In this document: positions 3,273 to 28,721 of the stretch, one piece after another | Layout: each line of letters begins with the position of its first letter | Position numbering within the stretch: the first letter of the stretch is position 1 | Source: Deltaproteobacteria bacterium | GTDB lineage: Bacteria > UBA10199 > JACPAL01 | Assembly: GCA_016180855.1 (NCBI GenBank) | Contig: JACPAL010000010.1 | Coordinates: 1 to 64,000 of the forward strand | DNA: 64,000 nt | Reading direction: 5' to 3' | Notes under the pieces: generated by a model | Databases searched by the model: none | Told to the model about the DNA's origin: nothing | What the model saw: the letters and a program-made list of their open reading frames with translations, nothing else | Made by a program: the position numbers and the translations under genes

Positions 3273-4145
3273 TTAGGTCAAAAGATCGGCTAGTCCTTCA
3301 GCGAGCAGTTCGGCATTGAGAAAGAATCCCTTCTCGTAAACATCCTCCTTCCTCTTGATCGTCGGATGGTAAAAGACATCGGCGACATAGCGGCCGTACA
3401 TATCGGTCTTGTAGGTTTTGATCACAATGAACTCAATATCTTTGAGCCTCCCCTCCACGAAGCTCTTGGCCTGGTCTGCACGGTCGGGGTCCTTGCCGGT
3501 CTTGATTCCGTTCTTGACGATCTCGGCGGTGTTGATTCCCCGAAAACGAATCCGCTGGTTGACCCAAACCTCAAAGCCCAAGTCGATCCGAACGAGGAGC
3601 GTATCACCATCCACGACCCTTTCGACCACCGCCTTGTAGATGTGGAGGGGATCGTCGCCTCGTTCCAAGGTTGCCGAGCCTGACTTCAATTTCTTTGGGG
3701 ATTTTTCAAGCGTATAAAAATCTTTCTGGATCGCCTTGCGCAAGGTATCCCGGCTCCATTCTTCTGTTGCTGCTTGCTGGAAATAAAAGTCTCTTTCCTT
3801 CTCATCTTTCACGGAAAGGAGTTCCGTGTAGTGGGCCCAACTGAGTTGCCCTGCCTCTTCCGGCTTGGGTACCTCATCGGGCCAATTTCGGTAAAACTGA
3901 ATGATCCGGTAGAGGAGGGTCTGGTCCAGATTGAGGTCTTCGGAAAGTTTGGCGGTGAGTCCGGTCGCTTGATCGGGATCGGCAAGTTCCTTCATCTCGG
4001 ACATTCTCTTTCCCATTTTCCAGTAAGTGGAAACGCGGATTTCATTTACGGCGTTGAGGGCGGCCTGTTGACCGCTCTCGATTAATTTTTTCAGGTCATC
4101 GAGGAGCTTTCCGTAAGACTCGGTTTCTGCGAGTTCGGTAGCCAT
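3273..4145 (-). CDS. DUF1016 N-domain fused to SNase-like nuclease
   Basis: Residues 1-150 form a DUF1016_N-type helical domain (STYWKMGKRM, LYRIIQFYRNWP, LSWAHYTELL, FYFQQAATEEWSRDTLRKAI), as in YhcG proteins. Instead of the usual PDDEXK domain, residues 165-290 match staphylococcal-nuclease folds: VVDGDTL, RIRFRGINTAEI, YKTDMYGRYVADV and LLAEGLADLL. The expected metal-binding Asp, two Arg and Glu are present; the second acidic position is Asn, a common variant. Calcium-dependent cleavage of DNA or RNA in the cytoplasm is inferred. The domain swap is unusual, and a normal YhcG-type protein is encoded in the same island. Confidence 0.8.
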   Translation of the reverse strand: MATELAETESYGKLLDDLKKLIESGQQAALNAVNEIRVSTYWKMGKRMSEMKELADPDQATGLTAKLSEDLNLDQTLLYRIIQFYRNWPDEVPKPEEAGQLSWAHYTELLSVKDEKERDFYFQQAATEEWSRDTLRKAIQKDFYTLEKSPKKLKSGSATLERGDDPLHIYKAVVERVVDGDTLLVRIDLGFEVWVNQRIRFRGINTAEIVKNGIKTGKDPDRADQAKSFVEGRLKDIEFIVIKTYKTDMYGRYVADVFYHPTIKRKEDVYEKGFFLNAELLAEGLADLLT

Positions 4146-7633: not shown

Positions 7634-7669
7634 TTGACATATCTAAATCGATTCAGATACGTTTATACA
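7634..7669 (+). promoter_or_regulatory. Promoter with LacI-type operator in its spacer
   Basis: A consensus -35 hexamer TTGACA (7634-7639) is followed by the near-palindrome CTAAATCGATTCAG (7643-7656) and AT-rich -10-like sequence (7657-7669). A GGGAGG ribosome site and the ATG at 7687 come next. The palindrome matches 12 of 14 positions of the two operators before the HAD-type gene and resembles sites of Cra/FruR and ScrR regulators. The LacI-family gene at 11409 is the likely ligand. A repressor bound here would block RNA polymerase. Confidence 0.65.
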
Positions 7670-7686: not shown

Positions 7687-8625
7687 ATGAAAAACCGACA
7701 ATTAATTCTTTGTTGCCTTGCCTTGTTTATCTTCAATCTGTTTTTTATCTCGATGGCAGAGGCAGGGAGAGGAAAAACGATTGGTGTCTCGCTCCTGACA
7801 CTGGCAAACCCTTTTTTCAAGGAAATGGGTGATGCCATCAAGGGCGAAGCGAAGAAGAATGGTTACGAAGTCATTATTGTGAGTGGTGATCTGGATCCGG
7901 CCAGACAAAGAGAACAGATCAAAGATTTTATTGCCAGAAAGGTGGATGCGATTCTTTTGACTCCCTGCGATTCGAAGGCGATTGGTTCACCGATCAAAGA
8001 TGCCAATCAGGCCGGCATTCCTGTTTTCACTGCTGACATTGCCAGCATGGACAAAGAGGCCAAAGTTGTCTCTCACATTGCCACAAACAATTATGAAGGA
8101 GGTCGTCAGGCCGCCAAGGCCATGATGATCGCCTTGCAGGGAAAGGTGGATCCTAAGGTCGTTGTAATTGGGCATCCCGAAGTTGAATCCGTGATCCTTC
8201 GTGAGAAAGGATTTCGAGATGAAATTCGTGATGCCAAATCAAATATCAGAATTATCGGAAGTTGGCCCGGTGGCGGAGACAAGGCGAAAAGTTTTACAGT
8301 GACCCAGGAGATTCTTCAGTCCCATCCTGACCTGGCAGGATTCTTTTGTATTAACGACCCAACTGCTTTAGGGGCCACTGCGGCCATTGAGATTGCCAAA
8401 AAGACAGGCCAGATTATTGTGGTTGGCTTTGATGGTCAACCAGAAGGAAAAAAGGCAATTAAAGAAGGCAAGATATTTGCCGATCCCATTCAATTTCCCG
8501 ACGAGATCGGTCGCCAGAGCGTTCAAAATATAGTCAAATATTTCTATGGCGAGAAAGTTCCTCCACAACTGTTGATTCCGACAAAACTTTATTTAAAGGC
8601 GGATGCCGAAAAAGAATTAAAATGA
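7687..8625 (+). CDS. Sugar ABC transporter substrate-binding protein
   Basis: A 312-residue periplasmic binding protein of the ribose/fructose (RbsB, FrcB) type. It has a Sec signal (about residues 1-26, cleavage after AEA), then GKTIGVSLLTLANPFFKEMGDAIKGEAKKNG, DFIARKVDAILLTPCDSKAI and GFFCINDPTALGATAAI, as in CUT2-family proteins. It should deliver a monosaccharide to the membrane transporter. It is first of five collinear genes; its stop overlaps the next start by four bases. Fructose is inferred from the fructokinase-like kinase and Cra-like regulator downstream, not from the binding site itself. Confidence 0.9.
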   Translation: MKNRQLILCCLALFIFNLFFISMAEAGRGKTIGVSLLTLANPFFKEMGDAIKGEAKKNGYEVIIVSGDLDPARQREQIKDFIARKVDAILLTPCDSKAIGSPIKDANQAGIPVFTADIASMDKEAKVVSHIATNNYEGGRQAAKAMMIALQGKVDPKVVVIGHPEVESVILREKGFRDEIRDAKSNIRIIGSWPGGGDKAKSFTVTQEILQSHPDLAGFFCINDPTALGATAAIEIAKKTGQIIVVGFDGQPEGKKAIKEGKIFADPIQFPDEIGRQSVQNIVKYFYGEKVPPQLLIPTKLYLKADAEKELK

Positions 8626-10109
8626 ACAAGCAGCCCTTGTTACGGCTTCGGGGAATTAGCAAAAGCTTTCCTGGCGTCCAGGCACTGGGGAAAGTTGATC
8701 TTGATCTCTATGCTGGAGAAGTCTTGGCCCTTGTAGGGGAAAACGGGGCAGGAAAGAGCACATTAATTAAAATTATTGCGGGCCATTATCTTCCAGACAA
8801 CGGGACGATCGAATTAGAGGGAGAAAAAGTCATTTTCAGAACACCTGTCGATTCTGCTCAGAGTGGCGTTGCGGTGATTTACCAAGAGTTAAATATTATT
8901 CCCCATTTATCGGCATCAGAAAATATTCATCTTGGTCGTGAAAAAAGTAGCTTAGGTTTTCTGTCTAAGAAAAAGGAAGGAGCGGAGGCCGCCGCTCTTC
9001 TTCGAGAGCTTGGTTCTCATAGGGATCCCCAAACATTATGCAAGGATCTTTCTGTTTCGGAACAACAGATTGTTGAAATTGCAAAATCACTTTCTCGGAA
9101 GGCTAAAATTATCATCATGGATGAACCAACAGCAATGCTGACTGAAAGAGAAACGAAGAGACTCTTCAAAATTATTCTGGAACTCAAGAGAAACGGGGTC
9201 GGCATCATTTATGTCAGTCATCGCCTCGATGAGATCTATACGATAGCCGATCGTATCATGGTGTTGCGTGATGGAAATCACGTTAAGAGTGCCATGGTTT
9301 CAGAGATTAATCGTCGAGAGTTGATCGAATGGATGGTTGGTCGGGAGATAAAAGATGAATTTCCCAAGCGGGTTTCTCAAAAGGGGGCCTTGAAATTATC
9401 CGTGAGAAATTTAAGCAAAAAAGGACGCCTCAAAAATGTTTCTTTTGATGTTTTTTCAGGAGAGATCCTGGGATTGGCCGGGCTTGTTGGGGCCGGGAGA
9501 ACCGATATTGCCAGAATCCTGTTTGGGGCTGATCGGGCTGACTCCGGATCGGTAGAGCTTAATGGCAAGGCCTTGAATATTAAAACTCCGAAGGGGTCGC
9601 TAAAAAACGGCATCTGTCTTGTGCCGGAAAATAGAAAAGAAGAAGGGCTTGTCCTTTCCTTGTCAACGCGTGAAAATTTTGCACTTCCCAATTTAGGCGC
9701 CTTGGCCAAGCATGGCCTTCTGTCAAAAAGAGGAGAAAAAAGGTCATTTAAGAAACATTGGGACCGGCTCAAGATTAAGGTTTCAAGCCCAGACGATCCC
9801 GTGCTCAATCTTTCCGGAGGGAATCAGCAAAAAATTGTTTTGGCAAAATGGCTGGAACGCCATTTTGAAGTGATTATCCTGGATGAACCGACACGCGGTA
9901 TTGATGTTGGTGCAAAATATGAGATCTATCAACTGATCCAGCAGTTGGCGGATCGAGGGAAAGCGGTGATATTGATCAGTTCGGAACTTCCCGAGCTTTT
10001 AAATCTAAGTGATAGAATTATCGTTATGCACGAAGGAAGAATGACAGGGGAAATAAAAAATCTGCAAGGAGTGACGCAAGAAGAAGTGCTTCACCTTGCT
10101 ATGGATTGA
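8622..10109 (+). CDS. Sugar ABC transporter ATP-binding protein
   Basis: The 495 residues contain two tandem ABC ATPase domains, as in RbsA/MglA/FrcA. The first has Walker A GENGAGKST (about 38-46), signature LSVSEQQ (about 142-148) and Walker B IIIMDEPTA. The second has a degenerate Walker A region GLVGAGRTD, signature LSGGNQQK (about 400) and Walker B VIILDEPTRGID. Degeneration of the second P-loop is normal in this family. It powers monosaccharide import with the neighbouring binding protein and permease. Four-base overlaps on both sides indicate translational coupling. Length is typical (about 500). Confidence 0.95.
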   Translation: MNKQPLLRLRGISKSFPGVQALGKVDLDLYAGEVLALVGENGAGKSTLIKIIAGHYLPDNGTIELEGEKVIFRTPVDSAQSGVAVIYQELNIIPHLSASENIHLGREKSSLGFLSKKKEGAEAAALLRELGSHRDPQTLCKDLSVSEQQIVEIAKSLSRKAKIIIMDEPTAMLTERETKRLFKIILELKRNGVGIIYVSHRLDEIYTIADRIMVLRDGNHVKSAMVSEINRRELIEWMVGREIKDEFPKRVSQKGALKLSVRNLSKKGRLKNVSFDVFSGEILGLAGLVGAGRTDIARILFGADRADSGSVELNGKALNIKTPKGSLKNGICLVPENRKEEGLVLSLSTRENFALPNLGALAKHGLLSKRGEKRSFKKHWDRLKIKVSSPDDPVLNLSGGNQQKIVLAKWLERHFEVIILDEPTRGIDVGAKYEIYQLIQQLADRGKAVILISSELPELLNLSDRIIVMHEGRMTGEIKNLQGVTQEEVLHLAMD

Positions 10110-11419
10110 ACAGTATGAAAGGCAATTTTTTTCTTTCAAACTATGGGATGCTTTTTGTTTTATTATTGCTTGGCGTGTACTACAGTTTTACCACTCGAAC
10201 CGAACAGCATTCGGTCGGAACCGAGGCGGCCACGGAAGTTTTTGCTCAAATCGCCTCATATCCTATAGACACAAAGATCCTGATTCTTGCCAGCGAAGGT
10301 CAAGAAGAGGCAGAGTTTTCAGAGTTCACGGAGCATCTCCTCAAGGAAGCGAATTTTTCAAAAGTTAATATTTTCCGAGGGACTCCTTTTGAAATGAGGG
10401 AGGCGTTGAAGCTGTTCGAAAAGACTGCGGATCGTTACGGGGTTATTGCCGCTACTGTCAAAACATTAAAACTCCCTTTTATTGAAGAGATTCAAGACAG
10501 GACAAAGATCATTTCTCCTCGGTCAAGAGACTTCCCCAGCTTCTTAAAGCAAGGAAACCTGATTGCCATTGCTGATCGGATCGTCGTTATTGCGATCATA
10601 GCCATTGGTATGACCCTTGTGGTTCTGACGGGTGGAATCGATCTCTCGGTGGGGAGCCTCATTGCATTGTCGGCCGTTCTATTTACTTCTTCGATACGTT
10701 ATGCAGGGGGTGTCTTGGCTAGCTCCGGGGCGGTCTGGTTAGGTTTGTTCGCAGCCCTTGGGGCTTGCGCTCTGATAGGCCTTTTCTCGGGGGTCATGAT
10801 AACAAGATTTTCTATACCACCCTTTATTGTGACACTTGCAATGATGATGGTCGCAAGCGGGCTTGCCTTTATCCTTTCGAGGGGGCAGTCGATCTATGAA
10901 GTGCCGGACTCGATTACCTGGTTGGGGAGGGAAAGCATTGCCTGGGGTTTACCGAACACTGTTTGGTTGATGGCTGTTTTATATCTCTTGGGTTATATCA
11001 TGATGTCGTATACCGTTCTTGGACGCTACATTTATGCAACCGGTGGCAATAGAGAGGCTTCAAGACTTTCCGGTGTCCCTGTCAATAAGGTCCTTCTTTT
11101 TGTTTATACGGTCTGTGCGATGTTGGGAGGGCTGGGTGGTATTATACAGGTCTCCCAACTAAAGAGCGGAGCCCCTACCTATGGTTCTACTTATGAGCTT
11201 TATGTCATCGCAGCTGTTGTTGTTGGAGGAGCAAGTCTTTCGGGGGGGCAGGGAAAGATCCTGGGCACTTTGATTGGAGCTCTTATCATCGCTGTTATCC
11301 AGAATGGGATGAATCTGACGGGCGTTGAGAGTTACACGCAAAAGGTCGTGCTGGGCTTGGTCATCTTAGGTGCTGTGTTAGTCGACAAGCTGAGAATGGG
11401 GGCTCGTTATGGCAAGTAA
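10106..11419 (+). CDS. Sugar ABC transporter permease with soluble insert
   Basis: A 437-residue CUT2-type permease (RbsC/FrcC). Conserved parts include MTLVVLTGGIDLSVGSLIALSAV (about 165-190), PPFIVTLAMMMVASGLAFILSRGQSI and VVGGASLSGGQGKILGTLIGALIIAVIQNGMNL. Typical members have about 320-340 residues. The surplus is a hydrophilic stretch of roughly 120 residues (about 30-150) between the first membrane helix and the rest; it is predicted to lie outside the bilayer and resembles nothing I know. The start is a TTG overlapping the ATPase stop, or an ATG three codons later. The LacI regulator gene overlaps its 3' end by 11 bp. Confidence 0.9.
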   Translation: MNSMKGNFFLSNYGMLFVLLLLGVYYSFTTRTEQHSVGTEAATEVFAQIASYPIDTKILILASEGQEEAEFSEFTEHLLKEANFSKVNIFRGTPFEMREALKLFEKTADRYGVIAATVKTLKLPFIEEIQDRTKIISPRSRDFPSFLKQGNLIAIADRIVVIAIIAIGMTLVVLTGGIDLSVGSLIALSAVLFTSSIRYAGGVLASSGAVWLGLFAALGACALIGLFSGVMITRFSIPPFIVTLAMMMVASGLAFILSRGQSIYEVPDSITWLGRESIAWGLPNTVWLMAVLYLLGYIMMSYTVLGRYIYATGGNREASRLSGVPVNKVLLFVYTVCAMLGGLGGIIQVSQLKSGAPTYGSTYELYVIAAVVVGGASLSGGQGKILGTLIGALIIAVIQNGMNLTGVESYTQKVVLGLVILGAVLVDKLRMGARYGK

Positions 11420-12404
11420 TATTGAAGAAATAGCCAAAATGGCCGGCGTCTCTAAAACAACTGTTAGTATGGTGATGAACGGTAAGGCCGCACAATATGG
11501 CATTAATCAGGAAACGGCAGAAAAAATAAAAAAGATCGCCCAAAAGTTTCATTATGTTCCCAACAATATGGCACGAGGATTAAGACTCCAACGGATCGAT
11601 GCCTTTGGCCTCATTGTTCCTGATTTAAACAACTGGTTTTTTTCGCAACTCGCCCATTCGCTCGAAAATGTTCTACGAAAAAAGGGCTTTAGGCTTTATG
11701 TGACCTCTTCGCATTATGACGAAGAAGCGGAATACAAGAATATCAATGATCTGATCTCTTGGCATGTGGACGGGCTCATTGTGGCGAGTGTGATGAGGCA
11801 AGACAAGATTACAAAGGAGTTTTCCTCTTTAAAAATTCCGGTCGTTTATGTGGACAGAATTATCGAGAGTGAAAAGATATCCTGGATCTCCAGTGACAAT
11901 TTTCAGGGTGCCTATGATCTTGTGAGTTACCTTTGCTCAAAAGGGGTTAAGGAGGTTTATTATCTGGGAGGAGAAAGAACTGTTTCAACCCTCATGAACC
12001 GCGTGAACGGATACAAAAAGGCGCTAGAGGACCACAAGATCCCTTATAGGAGTGAATATGTTTTCGAAAAGGGCTCCACCCCTGACGATGCCTATGAATT
12101 GATGAAAATCGTCTACAAAAAGTGTCGCGGATTTCCGGAGGCGATGTTTTTGGCCTCCTGTGATTATATGACCGGGATTCTGCGTTTTTTCAAAGAGACC
12201 AACGACGCCAAAATTCCGCCAAAATTTCTGGTCGGAACATTTGATAATGAGCCATTGCTTGATTTTTTGTCAGTCAAAATTCCCTCTGTGCAGCAAGATA
12301 CCGAGGCAATGGCCGAGGCTGCCGTCTCGATCATTGAACAAGTACAACAGGGGGTGAAAGACGTTAAGCCTGTTTTAGTGAAGCCAAAACTTATTATAAG
12401 GTAG
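11409..12404 (+). CDS. LacI-family regulator, FruR/ScrR-like
   Basis: A 331-residue LacI-family protein. The N-terminal helix-turn-helix (NIEEIAKMAGVSKTTVSMVMNGKAAQYGINQETAEKI) is closest in pattern to Cra/FruR and ScrR (compare their NGKAKQYRVSDKT). A periplasmic-binding-protein-like effector domain follows (DAFGLIVPDLNNWFF, HVDGLIVAS, VGTFDNEPLLDF). Cra/ScrR proteins bind TGAATCGATTCA-like palindromes. Matching sites lie in the promoters at 7634 and 14398, so it probably controls its own operon and the HAD-type gene. The effector is inferred to be fructose or its phosphate. It lies within the operon, between permease and kinase. Confidence 0.9.
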   Translation: MASNIEEIAKMAGVSKTTVSMVMNGKAAQYGINQETAEKIKKIAQKFHYVPNNMARGLRLQRIDAFGLIVPDLNNWFFSQLAHSLENVLRKKGFRLYVTSSHYDEEAEYKNINDLISWHVDGLIVASVMRQDKITKEFSSLKIPVVYVDRIIESEKISWISSDNFQGAYDLVSYLCSKGVKEVYYLGGERTVSTLMNRVNGYKKALEDHKIPYRSEYVFEKGSTPDDAYELMKIVYKKCRGFPEAMFLASCDYMTGILRFFKETNDAKIPPKFLVGTFDNEPLLDFLSVKIPSVQQDTEAMAEAAVSIIEQVQQGVKDVKPVLVKPKLIIR

Positions 12405-12407
12405 CTT

Positions 12408-13331
12408 ATGAAGCATACAATTGTGGGAATAGGGGAAATACTCTGGGATTATTTTCCGGATGGCAAAAAGGTCGGTGGTGCGCCGACCAATTTTGCCTAC
12501 CATGCGGATCGGCTTGGTGCCAAAGGTGTTGTTGTCTCAAAAATAGGTAATGATACGGCTGGAAGGGAAATTTTAAAGAAGCTTAAAAAGGATTCTTTGA
12601 CCACAGATTACCTTGAAAAAGATCCTTTGTATCCTACTGGCTTGGTGAGAATCAAACTCTCTCAAGACCGGGATGCCGAATATGAGATAGAAAATGATGT
12701 TGCTTGGGACAATATTCGAGAATCGGATCCATTAGACGAACTGGCTCATCGCGCCGATGCCGTTTGTTTTGGAACCCTAGCCCAGAGAAGTGTCGTCTCA
12801 AGAAAGACGATCCAGTCATTTGTGAAACGATGTCATTCAACAGCCCTCAAAATATTTGACCTGAACCTGAGGGGGTTTTTCTATTCAAGAGAGGTTATCC
12901 TGGAATCACTGGCGCTTGCCAATGTCGTGAAGGTGAGCGAGGCCGAGTTGAGAATTGTTGCTTATCTTCTTTTACTGAAGGGCGAAGATCGGGATGTTTT
13001 AAAAGAACTTTCGGAGCGATTTAATTTAAAACTTCTGGCCTTGACGAAAGGAAGATCAGGAAGTGTCCTTTATGCACAAGGAGAGATTTCGGAACACCGA
13101 CCTTTCCCCTCAAAAATAATTGACACGGTCGGCACAGGGGATTCATTTGCCGCCGCCTTGGCAGTCGGGATGTTGAGTGGGGGGATGACTTTGGGTCGTC
13201 TCAATCGATTTGCCAATCAGGTTGCCTCGCTTGTCTGTGCCTCGCGTGGGGGGATGCCTCGTCTCTCTTTCAAGGAATGGAATTTTCTGAAGGGGGGGCT
13301 ACTGAAGGACTTAACGAAAAATACTGATTAG
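12408..13331 (+). CDS. PfkB-family sugar kinase, fructokinase-like
   Basis: A 307-residue ribokinase-fold kinase. It has GIGEILWDYFPDGKKVGGAPTNFAYHADRLGA at the start, VCFGTLAQRS, FDLNLRGFFYS and the C-terminal PfkB signature DTVGTGDSFAAALAVGML with the catalytic Asp (about residue 246). The N-terminal pattern is that of bacterial fructokinases/hexokinase-like PfkB proteins. It should phosphorylate the imported sugar with ATP. It starts three bases after the LacI gene and ends the five-gene unit. The gene overlaps the convergent LysR gene by four bases. Confidence 0.9.
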   Translation: MKHTIVGIGEILWDYFPDGKKVGGAPTNFAYHADRLGAKGVVVSKIGNDTAGREILKKLKKDSLTTDYLEKDPLYPTGLVRIKLSQDRDAEYEIENDVAWDNIRESDPLDELAHRADAVCFGTLAQRSVVSRKTIQSFVKRCHSTALKIFDLNLRGFFYSREVILESLALANVVKVSEAELRIVAYLLLLKGEDRDVLKELSERFNLKLLALTKGRSGSVLYAQGEISEHRPFPSKIIDTVGTGDSFAAALAVGMLSGGMTLGRLNRFANQVASLVCASRGGMPRLSFKEWNFLKGGLLKDLTKNTD

Positions 13332-14206
13332 TTTGAGATAAACTTTTGGCTTTCCTCACGGAGACAATGAATAAACTCTAACGCAAGGGGAGACAGAGGC
13401 TTTCCTTTTTTGTAGGCGATACCGACAGTTCGCCCGGCTTTCGTTGCCACCGGGATTGGGTAGACACGACCATTTTGCAAATCGGCCTGAACCGAATGAT
13501 ACGGTACAATCGAAAGGCCCAATCCGGCCTCAACCAATGAGACAATGGCGGATACCTTGATATTTTCAAATACAATTTTTGGTGTAAATCCCAAATGACG
13601 AAAAACATTGTCAATTTGAAAACGTGTTAAGGAACTACGGGGGAAGAGGATGAATTTTTCTTTTTTCAACTCGGCCTTTCTCTGAATAGCTGCGTGCTCT
13701 TTCGAGCCAATGAAAACCAGGGATTCTTTAAAGAGGGTTTCCGCACTCAACTCAGGCGGCAAATGATCGATGGTACAGATCGCAAAGTCTATCTTTTCGG
13801 CAAGAAGGTGTTGCACTGCTACGGAGGTTGCATAAATAGAGGGATGCACCTTGATATTTCTTCGTTTTGCCAGAAGTTTCTTTAATGCCTTTGGTACAAT
13901 CGATTCCATTGTTGAATCCACAGATGAAAATTTCAATTTTCCTTGGGTGATGTTCTCGAAACTGAATGCTTTCTCCAGTTTCTCGTATTGGACGAGTAGA
14001 TTTTTGGCTAGCCCATAGAGATGCTCGCCCTCCGGTGACAACTCCATGTTATTCCCCTTGCGTCGTAGAAGTGTTTTGCCAAACCGTTTTTCCAGAAAGC
14101 GAATGTGTTGTGTCAGGGCAGGTTGTGTTAAGTGAAGGCTCTTTGCGGCACGGCTCACTCCCCCGAGATCTACTATTTTTACTAATGACTTGAGTCGGTC
14201 CATCAT
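13328..14206 (-). CDS. LysR-family transcriptional regulator
   Basis: A 292-residue LysR-type regulator. It has an N-terminal winged helix (LKSLVKIVDLGGVSRAAKSLHLTQPALTQHIRFLEKRFGKTLLRRKGNNMELSPEGE, about residues 4-62) and a C-terminal effector-binding domain with ENIKVSAIVSLVEAGLGLSIVPY. It diverges from the HAD-type gene across 289 bp of AT-rich DNA, the classical arrangement for regulating the divergent target. That gene also carries LacI-type operators, so it may be under double control. The effector cannot be inferred. Confidence 0.9.
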   Translation of the reverse strand: MMDRLKSLVKIVDLGGVSRAAKSLHLTQPALTQHIRFLEKRFGKTLLRRKGNNMELSPEGEHLYGLAKNLLVQYEKLEKAFSFENITQGKLKFSSVDSTMESIVPKALKKLLAKRRNIKVHPSIYATSVAVQHLLAEKIDFAICTIDHLPPELSAETLFKESLVFIGSKEHAAIQRKAELKKEKFILFPRSSLTRFQIDNVFRHLGFTPKIVFENIKVSAIVSLVEAGLGLSIVPYHSVQADLQNGRVYPIPVATKAGRTVGIAYKKGKPLSPLALEFIHCLREESQKFISN

Positions 14207-14495
14207 ATAAATTATATTTATTTATTAATAAAAATTATTAATTTGTTTTATATATTTTTCTTTTCTAAGTCAACCTCTCAAGGCAAGAAGAATTTGGCAG
14301 GGAGGTTTTTTGAAAACCAGCTTAACAATAAAAAATATAAATAATATCAGTATGTTATTTATAGATAAGAAATTGAAAAAGACTAAATCGTTTTAGCTTG
14401 ACATTCTAAATCGTTTTAGATATTTATTAACAAAATTAAAACGATTTAGAACTGTACCAGGCGTTGGGGGAACCCGGTTACTAAGGAGGTGTTTT
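14207..14495. promoter_or_regulatory. Divergent regulatory region with three LacI-type operators
   Basis: This AT-rich interval holds three copies of one palindrome: CTAAATCGTTTTAG at 14383-14396 and again at 14406-14419, and TTAAAACGATTTAG in the opposite sense at 14436-14449. A TTGACA -35 box lies at 14398-14403, so the second copy fills the 17-bp promoter spacer, just as at 7634. The -10 (TATTTA, 14421-14426) is poor. An AAGGAGGTG ribosome site precedes the ATG at 14496. The first two operators are 23 bp apart and the third is 30 bp further, so looping or cooperative binding is possible. The left half near the LysR gene is a run of A/T with no other clear element. Confidence 0.7.
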
Positions 14496-16427
14496 ATGAC
14501 CGATAAAACCGCAGCCACAAGGCTTCCCTGGGCCAATATCCCCATCGTCAATGGGATCCCAGCCAACGAGGTCGCCCAATCATGGGATCTTAAGACCTCA
14601 AAAATTCAAGAGGTGTTTGGTTGTACCAGAGAAGAGGCAGAGGCTGTTATTGCCACATTAAACAGCCCGTCTTTAAAGAAAGAGGCAGAGGCTGGAACGG
14701 CCTTTGTTGATTTTGATCATGTCTCGATTTGTCGATCATTAGAGTCTGGTTCGGGGGCAAAATGTTATCAAAAACATCAACAATGTCGACCCTACTTTCC
14801 AAATGAAAGTTGTTTTTCAATCACGGTCAGCAAGGATTATTCAAAGATCCTCCCCATGGCCAATTGGAATCCTTACAACTATCAAAGAATCAGACAGTGG
14901 TTAAGCCGACTCGAGATGACTCGTGATGAGTCACAGCTGATCCTCTCTGATTATGACAGCACCTTGATTGTGGGGGATACCGGGCCGGTCGTGATGAAGA
15001 TAGCGGTTGAACGTGGTTATGCAAAATTCCGTGAGGGGGAACAGCCGTACATGCTGGAGCATTATAAGGAGCTCCATCCCGATTATCAATTCGACCCCGC
15101 CAAGGAGAATCCCTATACCTGGTGGAAACGATGGACAAAAGACAATCCCCAATTTGATGCCAACGCGCTGGCCATGGGATTTGCTGGCATGACCGTTAAA
15201 CAGATTGCAGAGTGCATCATGGCCGCAAAATACGACCCAGAATATCCGAAGGCCTTTCCTGAATTGAAAGACCTTTTTAATCATTTAATCAACAAAGGAA
15301 AGATTGTGGGTGTGATCTCGGCCAGCCCCTACCTTGCGGTTGCATTGACCTTGAAAGATAATGGGGTCAAGGTTCCTCTCTGGGCCGTTGAAGGGACTGA
15401 TTTTTATGTCAAACACCCAAAGAGTGGACAAGCTGTCTTATTATCTAATCTGGTCAATACGGAACTCTTGGCCAGAAATCCAAATGCCACCATTGAGGAT
15501 GTGATTAAGGAATATGGTGACCTTGTTGCGATGAGGGCGGTTCACGCGGTTCAACCGGGACAAAAGGGGAAGGGGGCCAGTGGTGTCGCGATCGCCTGGA
15601 GGGGCATTGACTATTGGAACAAACACAAAAGAGGTCATGGGGAGATGCCGCTGACTCTCGACCAGATGAGGTTGGTTGGTTATTTTGGTGATAACACGGC
15701 GCCGTTTAGCGATATGTTGGGGGACAATCCTGTCTCAGCCGGTAATGATCAAGGGCTGGCAAGGGTCTTGGTGCCGGAAAACCTATTGGTCGTCAACATC
15801 AACCGAGGGACTGATAAAGGGACAGGAGAGATCGATTTCAAAGAAAAGGTTCGGAACACAGAAAATTTCAGGGGATTTGTGGCGCAATTAAGACGAATCT
15901 ACGGCGGGGCGGTTGTATTGGAGCAGGACAGTATCTCCAAGGGGCCTGCCAAGGGGATCTTTTTGCCCAACCGTTTGAGTTCGCTCATCCCATTTATGAG
16001 AGATCGGTTTGAGGTGGAGTGTCGGCCAGAAGACGGCAATTACACCAAGATCAACTACCAGGGACGTTATGAGTACGATTTCGATAAACTGGTTTGTAAA
16101 TCACCAAGGCTAGGGGTTCCAGATTTTACGATTGGACGCGGATTACCTTACGGCCAACGGAGAGACACCGATATAGAGTGTTTCGATCGCGAAGAGGGGC
16201 TTTACCTAACCGAGCGCTCTCTGAGTGGGGGACTCACCTGCTATACAAGAAATAGGGAATTTGATTTTTGGCTTGAAGGAGTTCCCGAGGGGCTCGCCTT
16301 AAAAAGATACCATTCCTATCCCGGCGCTCTTGGTTCCTCCTTCATGAGATGGCTCTATAAGGGGTTAGAAAGGCTGATTGCACTTCGACCTGAAAATGAC
16401 CGATATGATCCTTATGTTTCTGATTAA
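14496..16427 (+). CDS. HAD-type phosphatase-like protein, 643 residues
   Basis: I do not recognise a family for the whole protein. The middle part has haloacid-dehalogenase motifs in order: motif I LILSDYDSTLIVGD (nucleophile Asp152 and acid/base Asp154, DxDST as in phosphoserine phosphatases); motif II VGVISASPYL (Ser275 or Ser277); candidate motif III Lys in QKGKGASGVAI (about 357-365); and motif IV GYFGDNTAPFSDMLG (Asp399, Asp406). About 145 residues before and 230 after are unexplained; the N-terminal part is Cys-rich (Cys79, 90, 97, 106). There is no signal peptide. LacI-type operators identical in form to those of the sugar operon suggest a role in metabolism of that sugar phosphate. 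The substrate is unknown. Confidence 0.6.
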   Translation: MTDKTAATRLPWANIPIVNGIPANEVAQSWDLKTSKIQEVFGCTREEAEAVIATLNSPSLKKEAEAGTAFVDFDHVSICRSLESGSGAKCYQKHQQCRPYFPNESCFSITVSKDYSKILPMANWNPYNYQRIRQWLSRLEMTRDESQLILSDYDSTLIVGDTGPVVMKIAVERGYAKFREGEQPYMLEHYKELHPDYQFDPAKENPYTWWKRWTKDNPQFDANALAMGFAGMTVKQIAECIMAAKYDPEYPKAFPELKDLFNHLINKGKIVGVISASPYLAVALTLKDNGVKVPLWAVEGTDFYVKHPKSGQAVLLSNLVNTELLARNPNATIEDVIKEYGDLVAMRAVHAVQPGQKGKGASGVAIAWRGIDYWNKHKRGHGEMPLTLDQMRLVGYFGDNTAPFSDMLGDNPVSAGNDQGLARVLVPENLLVVNINRGTDKGTGEIDFKEKVRNTENFRGFVAQLRRIYGGAVVLEQDSISKGPAKGIFLPNRLSSLIPFMRDRFEVECRPEDGNYTKINYQGRYEYDFDKLVCKSPRLGVPDFTIGRGLPYGQRRDTDIECFDREEGLYLTERSLSGGLTCYTRNREFDFWLEGVPEGLALKRYHSYPGALGSSFMRWLYKGLERLIALRPENDRYDPYVSD

Positions 16428-16451
16428 GGGTGTGTTGAAAAATGGCTTTTG

Positions 16452-16574
16452 GGGACTGTTCAAAAATGCCCAGCTGCAAGGCACCCCAAGGAGCCGCGAC
16501 GCAGGCGTACTTGAGGGTACGTCGAGGAGCCGGCGACGAGGGGAACGCAGCAGATGGCATTTTTCAACAGTCCC
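16452..16574. mobile_element. MITE-like palindromic element, 123 bp
   Basis: Terminal inverted repeats of 19 bp (GGGACTGTTCAAAAATGCC at the left, its complement with one change at the right) bound a GC-rich interior that is itself roughly palindromic, with CGTAC/GTACG at the centre. The element could fold into one long hairpin. A partial extra end (GTGTTGAAAAATGGC, about 16431-16445) precedes it. It has no coding capacity and sits between the HAD-type and aldehyde dehydrogenase genes. It has the form of a non-autonomous element moved by a transposase elsewhere, or of a REP-type repeat. Confidence 0.65.
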
Positions 16575-16624
16575 ATTAAGCGTCCTATTTGACAACCGAA
16601 GTCGTGGAAAGATAAGGGCTCTCC

Positions 16625-17989
16625 ATGGTCTATAGAACCTTAAATCCGGCCACGGAAGAACTTATCAAAACCTATCCCGAGATTGGATGGGATGAGGTCA
16701 AGAGGCGTGCTGAAAAGAGCCAGGAGGCGTTTCGGCAATGGCGGAAGAGCTCGCTTCCTCATCGTCGCGAACTTTTTATAAAACTGGCGAAGAGACTCCG
16801 TGAGGAAAAGTCAAGGCATGCGACAATCATGACGATGGAGATGGGGAAGCCGATTGTCGAAGCGGAGACAGAGATTGAGAAATGCGCCTTGGGTTGTGAA
16901 TTCTACGCTGAAAATTCAGAAAATTTTTTGAAAGAAGAGAGGCTTCAGAGTGACGCCAGCAAGAGCTATGTCCGTTTTGATCCGCTGGGAACGATCCTCA
17001 TCATCATGCCCTGGAATTTTCCCTATTGGCAGGCTTTTCGTTGTTCCATCCCGGCGATCATGGCGGGAAATGCCGTTCTTCTGAAGCATGCCCCGAATGT
17101 TCCGGATACAGCCCTTCATATAGAAAGTTTGTATCGGGAGGCCGGTTTTCCTGAAGGACTGTTTCAGAACCTCTTCTGCTCGAATGAGGTCGCGGCCCAG
17201 TTGATCGAGTCGCCTTATATCGAGGGTGTCTCACTGACCGGCAGTACGCGGGCGGGGAGTCAGGTTGCCTCGGTGGCGGGAAAATCAATCAAGAAAACGG
17301 TTTTGGAACTCGGGGGGTCGGATCCGTTCATTGTTTTTCCCGATGCCGATCTTGAAAAATGCATCCCGATGGCGCTTCGCTCCCGTTTCTTGAATGCGGG
17401 ACAGAGTTGTATTGCGGCGAAACGCTTTATCATCACCCAGGAGATTGCGCCTGCCTTTGAAGAGAAGTTTCTCCAGGCGATTGTCGCCCAGAAGGTGGGG
17501 AATCCGATGGAACGGGAGACCAAGATTGGTCCCATGGCACGGGAGGATCTGGTTGAGAATCTCTCACGGCAGGTTGAGGAATCAAAAAAGAAAGGTGCGG
17601 TTTGTCTGACGGGTGGGACGCGTCGCCCCGGAAAAGGTTATTTTTATCAACCAACTTTTCTGAAGGAGGTTCAATCGGAGATGGTGGTTTGTAAGGAAGA
17701 GACCTTTGGTCCGGTTGCCTCAATGATCGTTGTTAAAAATGAAGAAGAGGCGATCGATCTCGCGAATCGAACCCCTTATGGTTTGGGGGCGAGTATTTGG
17801 ACCCGCAACACCCATCGTGCGGAAGAGATTGCCAAGGGCATTGATGCCGGGAATGTCTTCATCAACGGAATGACCAAATCGGATCCCCGCCTGCCGTTTG
17901 GTGGATCAAAGCGCTCCGGTTACGGGCGGGAACTCTCGGTTTTCGGGATTCGGGAGTTTACGAATATCAAGACGGTCTGGATTGCCTAA
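16625..17989 (+). CDS. NAD(P)-dependent aldehyde dehydrogenase, succinate-semialdehyde type
   Basis: A 454-residue aldehyde dehydrogenase. It shows the cofactor-domain motif PWNFPYWQAFRCSIPAIMAGNAVLLKHA, SLTGSTRAGSQVA, the catalytic-site Glu in VLELGGSDPFIV (about residue 229), the nucleophile Cys in NAGQSCIAAKRFI (about 263) and ETFGPVASMIV. The short N-terminus and overall pattern fit the succinate-semialdehyde dehydrogenase (Sad/GabD-like) group, which oxidises the aldehyde to the acid in the cytoplasm. No GABA gene lies nearby, so the physiological substrate is open. It is transcribed alone; the MITE-like element lies just upstream. Confidence 0.88.
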   Translation: MVYRTLNPATEELIKTYPEIGWDEVKRRAEKSQEAFRQWRKSSLPHRRELFIKLAKRLREEKSRHATIMTMEMGKPIVEAETEIEKCALGCEFYAENSENFLKEERLQSDASKSYVRFDPLGTILIIMPWNFPYWQAFRCSIPAIMAGNAVLLKHAPNVPDTALHIESLYREAGFPEGLFQNLFCSNEVAAQLIESPYIEGVSLTGSTRAGSQVASVAGKSIKKTVLELGGSDPFIVFPDADLEKCIPMALRSRFLNAGQSCIAAKRFIITQEIAPAFEEKFLQAIVAQKVGNPMERETKIGPMAREDLVENLSRQVEESKKKGAVCLTGGTRRPGKGYFYQPTFLKEVQSEMVVCKEETFGPVASMIVVKNEEEAIDLANRTPYGLGASIWTRNTHRAEEIAKGIDAGNVFINGMTKSDPRLPFGGSKRSGYGRELSVFGIREFTNIKTVWIA

Positions 17990-19308: not shown

Positions 19309-19348
19309 CCGCCAGAAAACCCTGCCATCTTGCCGCGGGGTTGTTCAT
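19309..19348. repeat. Short hairpin repeat, copy 1 (degenerate)
   Basis: Member of a 40-bp family with copies at 54701-54740 and 54791-54830. The shared form is CCGCCAGAAAACCC, an 8-10 bp stem around TCTTG, then GGG and GTTGTTCAT or similar. In this copy the left stem (CCTGCCA) and right stem (CCGCGGGG) are mismatched, as if recombined between two stem types. It abuts the 3' end of the PIN-domain gene. Confidence 0.55.
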
Positions 19349-19785
19349 AACTCATTGGGACACTTGACCGGAATCGGCAATTTACCCTCAAAATGTTTAA
19401 CATTCCATGTAATAAAACCTGAGAGATGATCCGTAAACCTTTCTACTACATAAGCGATTTGGGCATCCCCTAATGAATTTTTTCTTTGAACCTGTGAGAA
19501 AATAGTTGGGATATCGTATTGAAGATTTCCCGTAGAATCGGCCGGGAAGAGGATTTGGACGGGATATTCCTGGGTAAAGCCGGCGTAGAGATCGAATAAG
19601 TCTGTGGGGGAAAGATTGTAAGAGAGAATGCCACAGACCTCCAAAAGATTAAAAATAGAGGTACAGCCGTGGATCTTTTTTGCACGAACCTTGTCCAAAA
19701 ACCTTCTGTTGTTTTCGGTTAGAGAATCCCTTGGATAACGAAGATCACGTACAAAAATATCCGAATCGATAAATAGTCTCTTCAT
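19345..19785 (-). CDS. PIN-domain toxin, VapC-like
   Basis: A 146-residue PIN-domain protein. Acidic residues expected in the Mg-dependent RNase site are visible: FIDSDIFV (Asp near the N-terminus), NLLEVCG (Glu) and NSLGDAQIAYV (Asp), followed by FITWNVKHF in place of the usual terminal Asp motif. It probably cleaves RNA and is held inactive by the ribbon-helix-helix protein encoded immediately upstream with a four-base overlap, the standard antitoxin-first order. Part of a short hairpin repeat abuts its stop codon. Confidence 0.85.
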   Translation of the reverse strand: MKRLFIDSDIFVRDLRYPRDSLTENNRRFLDKVRAKKIHGCTSIFNLLEVCGILSYNLSPTDLFDLYAGFTQEYPVQILFPADSTGNLQYDIPTIFSQVQRKNSLGDAQIAYVVERFTDHLSGFITWNVKHFEGKLPIPVKCPNEL

Positions 19786-20072
19786 AAGGAGCGCCGACGA
19801 TGACGAATAACCTCTTCTTCAGGACTCATCCTCGTTTTTCCAGACAGTTTTTGTCGAAGCAGGGACCAATCAATCTTTCTTCTTGGTTTTTTGTTTTTCT
19901 TCATGCTTTCAGTTGCCTCGGCAATTCTTTCCAGGTGTGAGGTCTCTTCGGTTAATATCTTTTCAAGGGCTTGCCTTATGAGAGATCCCTTGGAACAACC
20001 TTTTTCAGAGGAGGCTTGCTCTAAACGATCGAGGAGTGATTCTGGAAGTTTCATTGTAAATACGTGAGACAT
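19782..20072 (-). CDS. Ribbon-helix-helix antitoxin
   Basis: A 96-residue protein with an N-terminal ribbon-helix-helix DNA-binding domain (FTMKLPESLLDRLEQASSEKGCSKGSLIRQALEKIL, about residues 5-40). A basic C-terminal tail (KKNKKPRRKIDWSLL) would wrap the toxin. It overlaps the PIN-domain gene by four bases. It should neutralise the toxin and repress the shared promoter, which lies in the AT-rich stretch at about 20073-20110. Confidence 0.85.
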   Translation of the reverse strand: MSHVFTMKLPESLLDRLEQASSEKGCSKGSLIRQALEKILTEETSHLERIAEATESMKKNKKPRRKIDWSLLRQKLSGKTRMSPEEEVIRHRRRSL

Positions 20073-24872: not shown

Positions 24873-25523
24873 ATGAGTTTTGCCGGTTTGATTGAGATAT
24901 TTCTCCATCTCGATGTTCATTTAAATGAATGGATTGGATTGTTAGGCCCCTGGATCTATCTTTTATTGTTTCTCATCATCTTCTGCGAGACGGGGTTAGT
25001 GATAACTCCCTTCCTACCCGGAGATTCTCTGCTATTTGCCTTGGGGGCGCTCGCGGCGACTGATCAGGCGGTCTTGAGGCTCCCGTTATTGATGATCCTG
25101 CTTATGGCTGCCGCCGTCTTGGGTGATGCCGTCAACTATTCGATAGGGAGACGCATTGGTCCGAAGGTCTTTCGAGAAGGGGCCCGTTGGTGGCTGAGCA
25201 AAAAACATCTTTTGGCAACGGAGGCGTTTTATGAACGTCATGGAGGCAAGACGATCGTGATCGCCCGGTTCATGCCGATCATCCGGACCTTCGCCCCTTT
25301 CGTGGCCGGCGTTGGTACGATGACGTATCGTCGGTTTGCGGTTTTTAATGTGGCAGGGGCCCTCCTTTGGGTCTTCGCCTTTCTGCTCGGTGGCTATTAT
25401 TTTGGGAATATCCCTGCGGTGAAGAGAAACTTCGAATTTGTCATCCTGGGGATTGTTGCTCTCTCTTGTATGCCACTTTTCTTAAGGCTTGTTAAAGGAT
25501 TGAGAAAGGCCAAGCGCCTCTGA
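24873..25523 (+). CDS. DedA-family membrane protein
   Basis: A 216-residue inner-membrane protein. It has FCETGLVITPFLPGDSLLFALGALAA (about residues 38-63), GDAVNYSIGRRIG, FYERHGGKTIVIARFMPIIRTFAPFVAGVGTMTYRRF and four to five hydrophobic helices, all typical of DedA proteins. These act in membrane homeostasis; several are undecaprenyl-phosphate or phospholipid flippases. The E and D/R residues used by the family are present. Its 3' end overlaps the convergent subtilase gene by 42 bp. Confidence 0.92.
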   Translation: MSFAGLIEIFLHLDVHLNEWIGLLGPWIYLLLFLIIFCETGLVITPFLPGDSLLFALGALAATDQAVLRLPLLMILLMAAAVLGDAVNYSIGRRIGPKVFREGARWWLSKKHLLATEAFYERHGGKTIVIARFMPIIRTFAPFVAGVGTMTYRRFAVFNVAGALLWVFAFLLGGYYFGNIPAVKRNFEFVILGIVALSCMPLFLRLVKGLRKAKRL

Positions 25524-28500
25524 AATCTCCTGACCCCTCGTTCTCGATTCGGCAAAGGCGGCCAACGCGATTGCCCGCCTTGGATCAATCTGGCCGGCCC
25601 CCTCCTCTTTCTCCGAGAATCCGGTCAGGTGGTGAGCAGAGAGTCTCAGGATCCTCCGGACCTCCTCAGGTCTCAAAGAGGGGTTTACCTGATACATGAT
25701 TTGGATCAACCCTGCGACGAATGGCGCCGCAAATGAGGTCCCAGACGTGATTTCATATTTATTGTCGGGAGTCGCTACGAGCAGGTCAGATCCTGGGGCG
25801 ATCAGGAGGCTTTGCTGACCCAAATGCCCCGCCCTTGAGGAGAAAGAGGCGACCTCGTCGTCGTAGGCCTCAGCCGTTTCCCGTGTATCCGAGGCACCGA
25901 CCACAAGAACTTTTTCCTCAAAAAGACCCCAAAAATTCAAATTTCCGAGCGGGCCCCACTCGTCTATATTTCTGTTCCCCGCTCCAACGACGAGGAGAAT
26001 CCCAACCTTTTCCAACCGATCAAGATTTGCTTGTAGCCGTTGATACTGCGGGGATTGTTGAAAGACGGCGACATCCTGTCCCCCAAGGAATTGATTGCTC
26101 CAGACGGAGATATTAATGACCCGAAGTGATGGATCTTTTTCCTTTTGTCTCGCGGCCCATTCATAGAGAGAGCTCAGGGAATCAACCCAGTCATGGAAGG
26201 TCATCCTCTCAAAGGGGAGATTAATGCCAATTACGCGGGATCCCGGGGCGACACCGGTTGTTTCCCCTGCCAGGACAGATGCGATATTGACCCCATGCGT
26301 GGTCTGAGGTTCGCGTCCTGGGACCGGTCTCAACCTCTTTTGAATCGGGACAAGGTCTGACGCCTCTTCGACCCTCATACGACCTGACAGCCCACCCCCT
26401 CCATGGAGTCCTGGAAAGTCGGGATCGATGATGATCGAGGATTGACCTTGGCCCGTTAGCTTCAAACCTGTTCTTGGATCAACCCGCTCATGAATCTCTT
26501 CCAGTCCGAGCGGGAGGGTGTGCGCCTCATCAACCGCCTTGTTCCCCCCAGATTGGAAGAGTCTGTTGTAGTGGCTTGTTTGAGCCATTGCAGAGATCTC
26601 TTTGAGGCTCTCTTCACTGAAAAGGGGCCTGAGCTCAGCGATCGCCTCTTCCATGCCTTCAAGGTCACCGAGGAGGATTCTCGTAGCTTGTACCGCTCGT
26701 CTCATTCCCCGCTGTGGATGGCTTTTCTCAATAGTTCTGAGTCTCGGGATCCAGGCAGGGTCCTCTGTATAAACGATATTCGACAGCAGCAATTTGGCCT
26801 GTCCTGGGTCGGCTATTTTAACCAGAAGTTGGTAGAACGGTTTCGGGTGTCTTTTGAGAGATCGTAACAATAGATCATCTATTATCTCCTTATGGGGGCC
26901 ATTCGCTAGTTTTTGGATCATCGGGAGATGGGCGATCATTTTGGCGGCCGCCTGGGGATTGGAGGCAAAAGAGAGCAGATAAAGGGTCGTCACGAGCCTT
27001 TCATCCTGCATCGCTGCATCGGGAAGGGGAGAGGCGACAAATCGATCTAAACGCTCAAACCATTCTGTTCCGATTTGTTCGGGGGCTGGTGTGAAGATTT
27101 TATCAAATGAACCCAAAAGATAGGTGAATCGGGTTGGATTCGCCTCAATGGTACGGGCGACCAATGACAACGCAGGGGCGACGAATTCGACCTGGGGAAA
27201 TCTGTTGGCCAGCCCGACAAACTCCATGGCGGTGTCTGAGAAACCGCCTCTTCGGGATCCCACGTCCAAATTGGTCCCCGGAGGGCGTGTCAGGAGTCCC
27301 AAGACTTTTTGGGTCCACTCTTTTGGTGGCAGATGAGGTTTCCAGGCGATGAGGAGGTCGTAGAGGTGTCGGCTGTATTTCTCCTGCCGGTAAACGGTTT
27401 CAAAGAAGGGAGCGATTGCCGGCTCTTCATGGATGTGGCGGGCCAGGATGGTAAAAAGTGGTTTTACTCCAAACAAGAGGGTTTTATAGGTGAGGAAAGT
27501 ACCTTGGGCCCGCTGCAAGATAAGGGATATCATCTCTCGGTCCTCAAGGTGGTACTCTTCTACAATATTCAGGACGCCGGGGTCCTCCTGGCGAATCCCT
27601 TCGAGGACAATCTCCCGGATCTTTTGTCGATCGACCTCGGTCGCGATTTCATTCTTAAGAAGGTACTTGGCCGCCTTCAGGCGCGTGTGGAACGGCTCTG
27701 CCGGTTCCAGATACCGGGTGATTTTTTGAGACATCTCATCGGGAGAGACAAAACCGATCTGTAAAAAGAGGTCGAGTTTTTCCTCGTGTTGGCCGGTCTG
27801 CCGGAAGGCGGCATCAAGCAGGATCGGGAGTGCCTCACGTCGTCGGGAATTGGCTAATCCCACCAGAAGGACCTCTCTCTTATGCCGATTCTCATCAAGG
27901 GCATTGGCGTAGGCGTGCCTTTTGTCATCGGGTTCAGGTCCGTTAAGCAGGAGAGCCTCTTTCTGCTGTTCAAGTTTCTTGTGGGCCTCAATGAGAAGAC
28001 TCAACGCCTTGTCATTTTTGTAGGCGAGCGCCGAAATAGCGATCAGAGTCGGGTTGTCCGCGACCCCCTCCCGTACCTCTTTGCTAAACTGTTGGATCAG
28101 CCAGACATCCCCAAGATCCCCGAGCGTGATAATCGCCACATCCCTTCTCTCTTCAGAGGCCTCTTTGGCAACCTTCCTCAAGAACGGGATGAAGGAGGGG
28201 TCATAAAATGAACCGATTCGTACCAGAAGCTCTGCCTTGAGATATTCATCCGATGTTGCCTTGTAGATTTTTGGCAGAAAGACGGGTGGCATGAGACCGA
28301 GGAGAGATTCAATCTTGAAGAGCTGTTCCTCGTTGGTCGGATCGATTGACTCAAAAATTGAGAGATCCGGCTGTTTCAAGAGGGGACTCAGTTTTTGCTG
28401 TTGATAGGCCTTGGCAAGGCTCTTTCTGAGGATGTCTCTTAAGGCGGGTGTCCAGACGGCAGGATCATGAATGAACTCCCGTAAGGTGAGTCGGGCGTCT

Positions 28501-28721
28501 TTATTTGTATCGAGTTGATGGGCCTTGTTGATTGCCTGACAGTAAAGATCGGTCTGTCCGCAAGAATTGGGCTGTTTGGGTAATCTGAATCGATTGTTTT
28601 CAAATGGGAAAGAGGGGATCGGGAGCGTTCTTTCTCGAACCTTGCCTGTCATGGGGTTATTATCGGGAATTAAGTGGGGAATGTTGTTAATGGTTTCCCA
28701 GGAACCGACCGACCTTTTCAA
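25482..28721 (-). CDS. HEAT-repeat protein with S8 subtilase domain
   Basis: A 1079-residue protein. After about 60 residues comes one EF-hand-like loop (DTNKDARLTLREF). A long alpha-helical region with HEAT-like repeats runs roughly from 130 to 740. The C-terminal 320 residues form a subtilisin-fold peptidase with likely Asp in SSIIIDPDFPGLHG, His in THGVNIASVLAG, the oxyanion Asn in VVGAGNRNID and Ser in ITSGTSFAAPFVAGL. No signal peptide is seen from this ATG or from an inner ATG at 28652, so the protein may be cytosolic or exported by another route. The start lies inside the upstream aminotransferase gene (35-bp overlap). Large HEAT-subtilase fusions are unusual. Confidence 0.8.
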   Translation of the reverse strand: MKRSVGSWETINNIPHLIPDNNPMTGKVRERTLPIPSFPFENNRFRLPKQPNSCGQTDLYCQAINKAHQLDTNKDARLTLREFIHDPAVWTPALRDILRKSLAKAYQQQKLSPLLKQPDLSIFESIDPTNEEQLFKIESLLGLMPPVFLPKIYKATSDEYLKAELLVRIGSFYDPSFIPFLRKVAKEASEERRDVAIITLGDLGDVWLIQQFSKEVREGVADNPTLIAISALAYKNDKALSLLIEAHKKLEQQKEALLLNGPEPDDKRHAYANALDENRHKREVLLVGLANSRRREALPILLDAAFRQTGQHEEKLDLFLQIGFVSPDEMSQKITRYLEPAEPFHTRLKAAKYLLKNEIATEVDRQKIREIVLEGIRQEDPGVLNIVEEYHLEDREMISLILQRAQGTFLTYKTLLFGVKPLFTILARHIHEEPAIAPFFETVYRQEKYSRHLYDLLIAWKPHLPPKEWTQKVLGLLTRPPGTNLDVGSRRGGFSDTAMEFVGLANRFPQVEFVAPALSLVARTIEANPTRFTYLLGSFDKIFTPAPEQIGTEWFERLDRFVASPLPDAAMQDERLVTTLYLLSFASNPQAAAKMIAHLPMIQKLANGPHKEIIDDLLLRSLKRHPKPFYQLLVKIADPGQAKLLLSNIVYTEDPAWIPRLRTIEKSHPQRGMRRAVQATRILLGDLEGMEEAIAELRPLFSEESLKEISAMAQTSHYNRLFQSGGNKAVDEAHTLPLGLEEIHERVDPRTGLKLTGQGQSSIIIDPDFPGLHGGGGLSGRMRVEEASDLVPIQKRLRPVPGREPQTTHGVNIASVLAGETTGVAPGSRVIGINLPFERMTFHDWVDSLSSLYEWAARQKEKDPSLRVINISVWSNQFLGGQDVAVFQQSPQYQRLQANLDRLEKVGILLVVGAGNRNIDEWGPLGNLNFWGLFEEKVLVVGASDTRETAEAYDDEVASFSSRAGHLGQQSLLIAPGSDLLVATPDNKYEITSGTSFAAPFVAGLIQIMYQVNPSLRPEEVRRILRLSAHHLTGFSEKEEGAGQIDPRRAIALAAFAESRTRGQEISEALGLSQSFNKP

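Follow-up and report, generated by a model that had tools for sequence, protein, structure and literature searches.

The closest solved relative of the protein described here is the phosphorylcholine phosphatase PchP of Pseudomonas aeruginosa (PDB: 4as2, 4as3), an exported enzyme that is regulated with choline and combines a HAD core with a large cap. Its HAD motif residues are D31, D33, T35, S166, K242, D262 and D267, and E42/E43 are implicated in alkylammonium binding (residue numbering from PMC3170909). AraL of Bacillus subtilis is a HAD sugar phosphatase within a sugar-induced regulon, for which the draining of sugar phosphates has been argued to be the reason for repression (PMC3207120). 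AraL is a NagD-type HAD protein with a different cap, and it resembles the protein described here in proposed role only.

In the window (the whole 64,000-nucleotide stretch of DNA that was analysed), gene P0001 encodes a HAD-type protein of 643 residues (Table 1). The original prediction of a real open reading frame of this type stands: the frame is open, a strong Shine-Dalgarno sequence fixes the start codon and four HAD motifs are present. P0001 is a single-copy gene in its own 2.2-Mb genome (genome search). Judged by eye, the N-terminus (MTDKTAATRLPWANIP) is not hydrophobic and thus lacks the signal peptide that periplasmic export of the PchP type would call for. Upstream lie a sugar transporter operon and, as had been noted, a LysR gene that diverges from P0001. 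The sugar permease (10106-11419) has an unusual N-terminal extension of ~140 residues before its BPD_transp_2 domain, with no Pfam match. Downstream, an inverted repeat at 16445-16581 (26-nt arms, 85% complementary, 85 nt apart) separates P0001 from an aldehyde dehydrogenase gene. An aldehyde dehydrogenase is also encoded near the P0001 relative in genome G001; a common pathway was considered and rejected, since the arrangements differ and the gene is several kilobases off in G001. Elsewhere in the window, two overlapping small genes at 19345-20072 (-) resemble, by eye, a PIN-type toxin and a ribbon-helix-helix antitoxin (no Pfam match at E <= 1e-3), the gene at 3273-4145 (-) encodes a DUF1016 N-terminal domain and, after it, a nuclease-like stretch (SNase match), and the product of the gene at 25482-28721 (-), 1079 residues long, has a subtilase domain at its C-terminal end and matches HEAT repeats weakly.

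Table 1. Coordinates of the features at the P0001 locus and its sugar operon (positions in the window).
Feature	Position	Strand	Basis
RbsB/RbsA/RbsC-type sugar ABC transporter, three genes	7687..11419	+	model/structure matches
LacI-family regulator; scores 257.8 bits, under the cut-off, with its best NCBIfam model, TIGR02417 (D-fructose-responsive)	11409..12404	+	
PfkB kinase, closest solved structure fructokinase 2qhp (E=2.8e-63)	12408..13331	+	
Divergent LysR-family regulator	13328..14206	-	model match
P0001, HAD-type protein, 643 aa	14496..16427	+	open reading frame of 643 codons
Aldehyde dehydrogenase, best model of succinate-semialdehyde type; co-transcription with P0001 uncertain	16625..17989	+	
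Matching operator TCTAAATCGATTCAGA upstream of transporter operon; TTGACA (7634-7639) ends 2 nt before it	7642..7657	.	genome search
LacI-type operator, outer bases imperfect	14382..14397	.	sequence read and site search
TTGACA, presumed -35	14398..14403	+	read directly
Perfect LacI-type operator TCTAAATCGTTTTAGA, inside presumed promoter spacer	14405..14420	.	read and genome search
Third LacI-type operator	14435..14450	.	sequence read and site search
Shine-Dalgarno AAGGAGG, 6 nt 5' of P0001 ATG	14483..14489	+	read directly
N-terminal domain, residues ~18-145, specific to the family, matching no known domain	14547..14930	+	21-30% identity to three relatives
HAD motif I, D152-Y-D154-S-T156	14949..14963	+	family and PchP alignments; agrees with DxDx(T/V)
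Cap W209-W210-K211, aligned with PchP Y82-Y83-Y84	15120..15128	+	profile alignment to 4as2; numbering PMC3170909
HAD motif II, I-S275-A-S	15315..15326	+	family alignments
HAD motif III, K359	15570..15572	+	family and PchP-like alignments
HAD motif IV, G398-D399-N ... G-N-D418, ~16-residue insertion inside	15687..15749	+	alignments
Family-conserved C-terminal extension, residues ~426-490	15771..15965	+	27-35% identity in three relatives
C-terminal tail, residues ~491-643, relative not found	15966..16424	+	tail searches

Exact copies of the 16-bp operator TCTAAANCGNTTNAGA are limited to two sites in the whole 2.2-Mb genome, 7642 and 14405; the remaining near-matches lie inside open reading frames or beside unrelated genes. 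The layout at P0001 (TTGACA-T-TCTAAATCGTTTTAGATA) parallels that at the transporter operon (TTGACA-TA-TCTAAATCGATTCAGATA), and the TTGACA at 14398 is presumed to be a -35 element because of this parallel; a sigma-70 scan did not call a promoter there, and the -10 element, TATTTA, is weak. The operators are even palindromes of 16 bp with a central CG, 140-30 bp from the start codon, and size, centre and distance are all typical of LacI-family sites (PMC4052901). The tie to sugar uptake that had been proposed from the operators is strengthened, the exact operator being shared, genome-wide, with the sugar ABC operon alone. We infer that P0001 and the transporter operon share one repressor and form a LacI-type regulon.

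Since the regulator is most similar to TIGR02417 and the kinase to fructokinase, the transported sugar is probably a hexose, fructose or a related one. The regulator resembles the fructose and sucrose regulators FruR and ScrR (TIGR02417) in its best model and in having an operator of 16 bp, an even palindrome centred on CG, but differs from that class in scoring under the curated cut-off. The binding protein of the operon is closest to ribose-binding proteins, and ribose or allose may be the sugar. A search of 45 further genomes of the phylum gave no relative of the LacI gene at E <= 1e-20, so that the regulatory link appears specific to the genome of P0001. The comparison suggests an acquired sugar block, to which the phosphatase was recruited.

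HAD motifs I (DYDST), II (ISAS) and IV (GDN), recognized at the outset, are present in P0001 and kept by its relatives, and K359, which had gone unnamed, supplies motif III. P0001 has the motif II serine (S275), the motif III lysine and both motif IV acids (D399, D418) of the HAD superfamily. The catalytic motif residues are invariant in three relatives from other genomes at 28-32% identity (four divergent members in all), hence the motif match is not due to chance. The second acid of motif IV had been taken to be the nearer aspartate, D406, which is likewise conserved in the family; the profile, however, aligns D418 (GNDQG) with D267 of PchP, and D418 is now the most likely candidate. Pfam PF12710 matches residues 149-292 at 23.1 bits (E = 1.1e-4), below its cut-off of 27, no NCBIfam model matches P0001, and a PDB search with the single sequence gave nothing useful. 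Two AlphaFold2 models, calculated from a two-row alignment, have a mean pLDDT of 37 and are too poor for a check of the Rossmannoid fold and its cap. The conserved motifs indicate that P0001 is probably an active, phosphate-removing HAD enzyme.

A profile of four members (P0001 and the three relatives), built without any PchP-like sequence, finds Pseudomonas PchP (4as2) at E = 1.8e-5. Profile-profile comparison (hhalign) against three PchP-like proteins, one of them a paralog on contig 2 of P0001's own genome (G000:C2), gives 98.3% and E = 1.9e-14, and a joint profile aligns the whole core to 4as2 at E = 1.4e-18, a score owed in part to its PchP-like members. The seven PchP residues listed above correspond, in order, to D152, D154, T156, S275, K359, D399 and D418. 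The match is confined to the HAD core, and the residues associated with choline differ, so that no full-length match to a characterized family unrelated to sugars was found. E42/E43 of PchP are replaced by G163/P164, and in the cap the aromatic pair of Y82-Y83-Y84 is kept in W209-W210 while the third residue is changed to K211. These replacements do not favour a positively charged substrate and argue against choline; a sugar ring could possibly stack on the tryptophans. P0001 also differs from PchP in that it is not exported, has ~120-145 extra N-terminal and >150 extra C-terminal residues, carries the ~16-residue insertion within motif IV and is controlled together with sugar uptake, not choline. 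The PchP-like HAD protein 4gxt and the G000:C2 paralog belong to the same HAD group but lack the N-terminal domain of the P0001 family; the paralog keeps a glutamate at the E43 position. Phosphoserine phosphatase is a more distant characterized relative.

Identity within the family extends over residues ~18-490 of P0001 and reaches 48-59% in the motif IV region. The original prediction that the flanks match nothing known holds against Pfam, NCBIfam and PDB, none of which gave a match to the N-terminal domain, but relatives of that domain do occur within one class. On present sequences it is a genuine domain of a small family, so far of one bacterial class. Similarly, ~230 C-terminal residues had been called unexplained; this remains so for ~153 of them (~491-643), which have no counterpart in the family alignment, whereas the part up to ~490 is family-conserved. 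Matches to the tail only (best outside match E = 0.0097) were weak and chance-like and were dropped after inspection of the alignments. Residues 1-145 contain five cysteines (43, 79, 90, 97 and 106) rather than the four first counted. Across the family C106 alone is conserved, and C90 and C97 are located within or next to an insertion private to P0001. The stretch C79-x10-C90-x3-H94-x2-C97-x8-C106 (window 14730-14813) is rich in Cys and His and might form a metal site private to P0001.

In a sample of 46 genomes of the phylum, sequence search identified three relatives: L002 (G001, same family, 483 aa), L003 (G041, 487 aa) and L004 (G019, 633 aa), the contig of L004 apparently being JAJFLL010000081.1 from an uncultured 'Deltaproteobacteria' MAG. 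The four-member profile adds five more (L009-L013, in G013-G017). Outside the phylum, several hundred genomes were searched by profile and ~85,000 solely with exact peptide patterns, a scope in which members may be missed; profile matches in other phyla are confined to the HAD core, and the peptide patterns recovered from the genome contigs only a relative already known. No relative was found in phage, plasmid and viral collections or in PHROGs. In the five added proteins the DxDxT of motif I is replaced by SGEG(T/S/G), SDEGS or EGQDT. Those of G013-G016 have a Pro/Ala/Lys-rich linker in place of the cap and a degraded motif IV; that of G017, cut off by the contig end, still has a cap-like stretch. 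All five start with an apparent lipoprotein signal and retain the N-terminal domain. This domain is under purifying selection in the G013-G016 relatives: codon comparison of the four proteins gives dN/dS of 0.05-0.26 for the N-terminal domain, 0.17-0.56 for the remnant HAD region and 0.07-0.58 for the C-terminal extension, ratios that are rough because several dS values are near saturation. Retention of the N-terminal domain after loss of the active site points to a role independent of catalysis, and the domain probably has a use of its own.

The whole is best explained if P0001 is a Mg2+-dependent, PchP-like HAD phosphomonoesterase under LacI control that acts on a hexose or related sugar phosphate, an account that we credit and doubt in equal measure. 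The protein would have the HAD fold with a large C1 cap and probably depend on Mg2+; D152 would attack the phosphate with D154 as general acid/base, S275 and K359 would hold the phosphate, and D399 and D418 the metal. The LacI repressor from the adjacent RbsABC-PfkB operon would occupy the three operators over the P0001 promoter until entry of the transported sugar (fructose or related) releases it, and P0001 would hydrolyse a hexose phosphate or related sugar phosphate derived from that sugar. Its purpose would most likely be to avoid sugar-phosphate build-up or to salvage sugar, as for AraL, and for an enzyme that might drain sugar phosphates, three operators giving tight repression would make sense. 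Of this account, the sequence itself shows the HAD motifs, the kinship with PchP and the shared operators; activity, metal, pairing of repressor with operators, class of substrate and purpose are inferred. P0001 has no Pfam or NCBIfam match of the AraL/NagD sugar phosphatase type; it is probably a cytosolic sugar-phosphate phosphatase, AraL-like in its working but outside the AraL family. It may, as first suggested, perform a new sugar-phosphate step. A literature search for fructose, LacI and HAD together found nothing. The PfkB kinase of the same regulon would phosphorylate the sugar, so that a phosphatase acting on the kinase product would work against the kinase.

Against a sugar substrate, no feature of the P0001 sequence points to one, its closest characterized enzyme acts on phosphorylcholine, and family members elsewhere have no sugar neighbours (G001, G041 and G016). 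The restriction of the regulatory link to the genome of P0001 also counts against the sugar account. The relation to PchP, the neighbourhoods of the relatives and the fact that several relatives look exported, as PchP is, favour an alternative in which P0001, still a PchP-like phosphatase, hydrolyses a phosphomonoester other than a sugar phosphate, for instance a nucleotide, glycerol phosphate or a phospholipid head group like phosphoethanolamine, and is co-induced with sugar uptake by coincidence. Loss of the E42/E43 pair, a protein with no signal peptide and an operator common to sugar uptake alone are less easily reconciled with it, and we consider this substrate class unlikely, though a serious contender. 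The HAD superfamily includes mutases, and a sugar regulon could use one, but the nearest characterized relatives of P0001, near and distant, are hydrolases and no mutase model of Pfam or NCBIfam matched it; a phosphotransferase or mutase-like enzyme acting on a sugar is thus very improbable.

The five relatives that have lost motif I, four of them together with the cap, while keeping an N-terminal domain of low dN/dS in the four compared, raise the idea that P0001 itself is a poor enzyme, or a binding or scaffold protein that works through its N-terminal domain, as those relatives presumably do. However, P0001 and three others keep every catalytic residue, which at ~30% identity would be unlikely without selection for catalysis, and we judge this improbable. 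Returning to the sugar-phosphate phosphatase, a wider picture can be drawn, tentatively and with more doubt than belief: a new family, restricted to one class, would join a PchP-like phosphatase to a new N-terminal domain; one member would have become cytosolic and been recruited into an acquired fructose-type regulon for a sugar phosphate outside the known HAD families, and others would have become catalytically dead lipoproteins with a functional N-terminal domain.

The operator, nearly unique in the genome, ties a PchP-like HAD phosphatase to sugar uptake and makes the question of its substrate directly testable. The family, defined by a new N-terminal domain, holds both apparently active enzymes and apparent pseudo-enzymes and is useful for finding the role of that domain.
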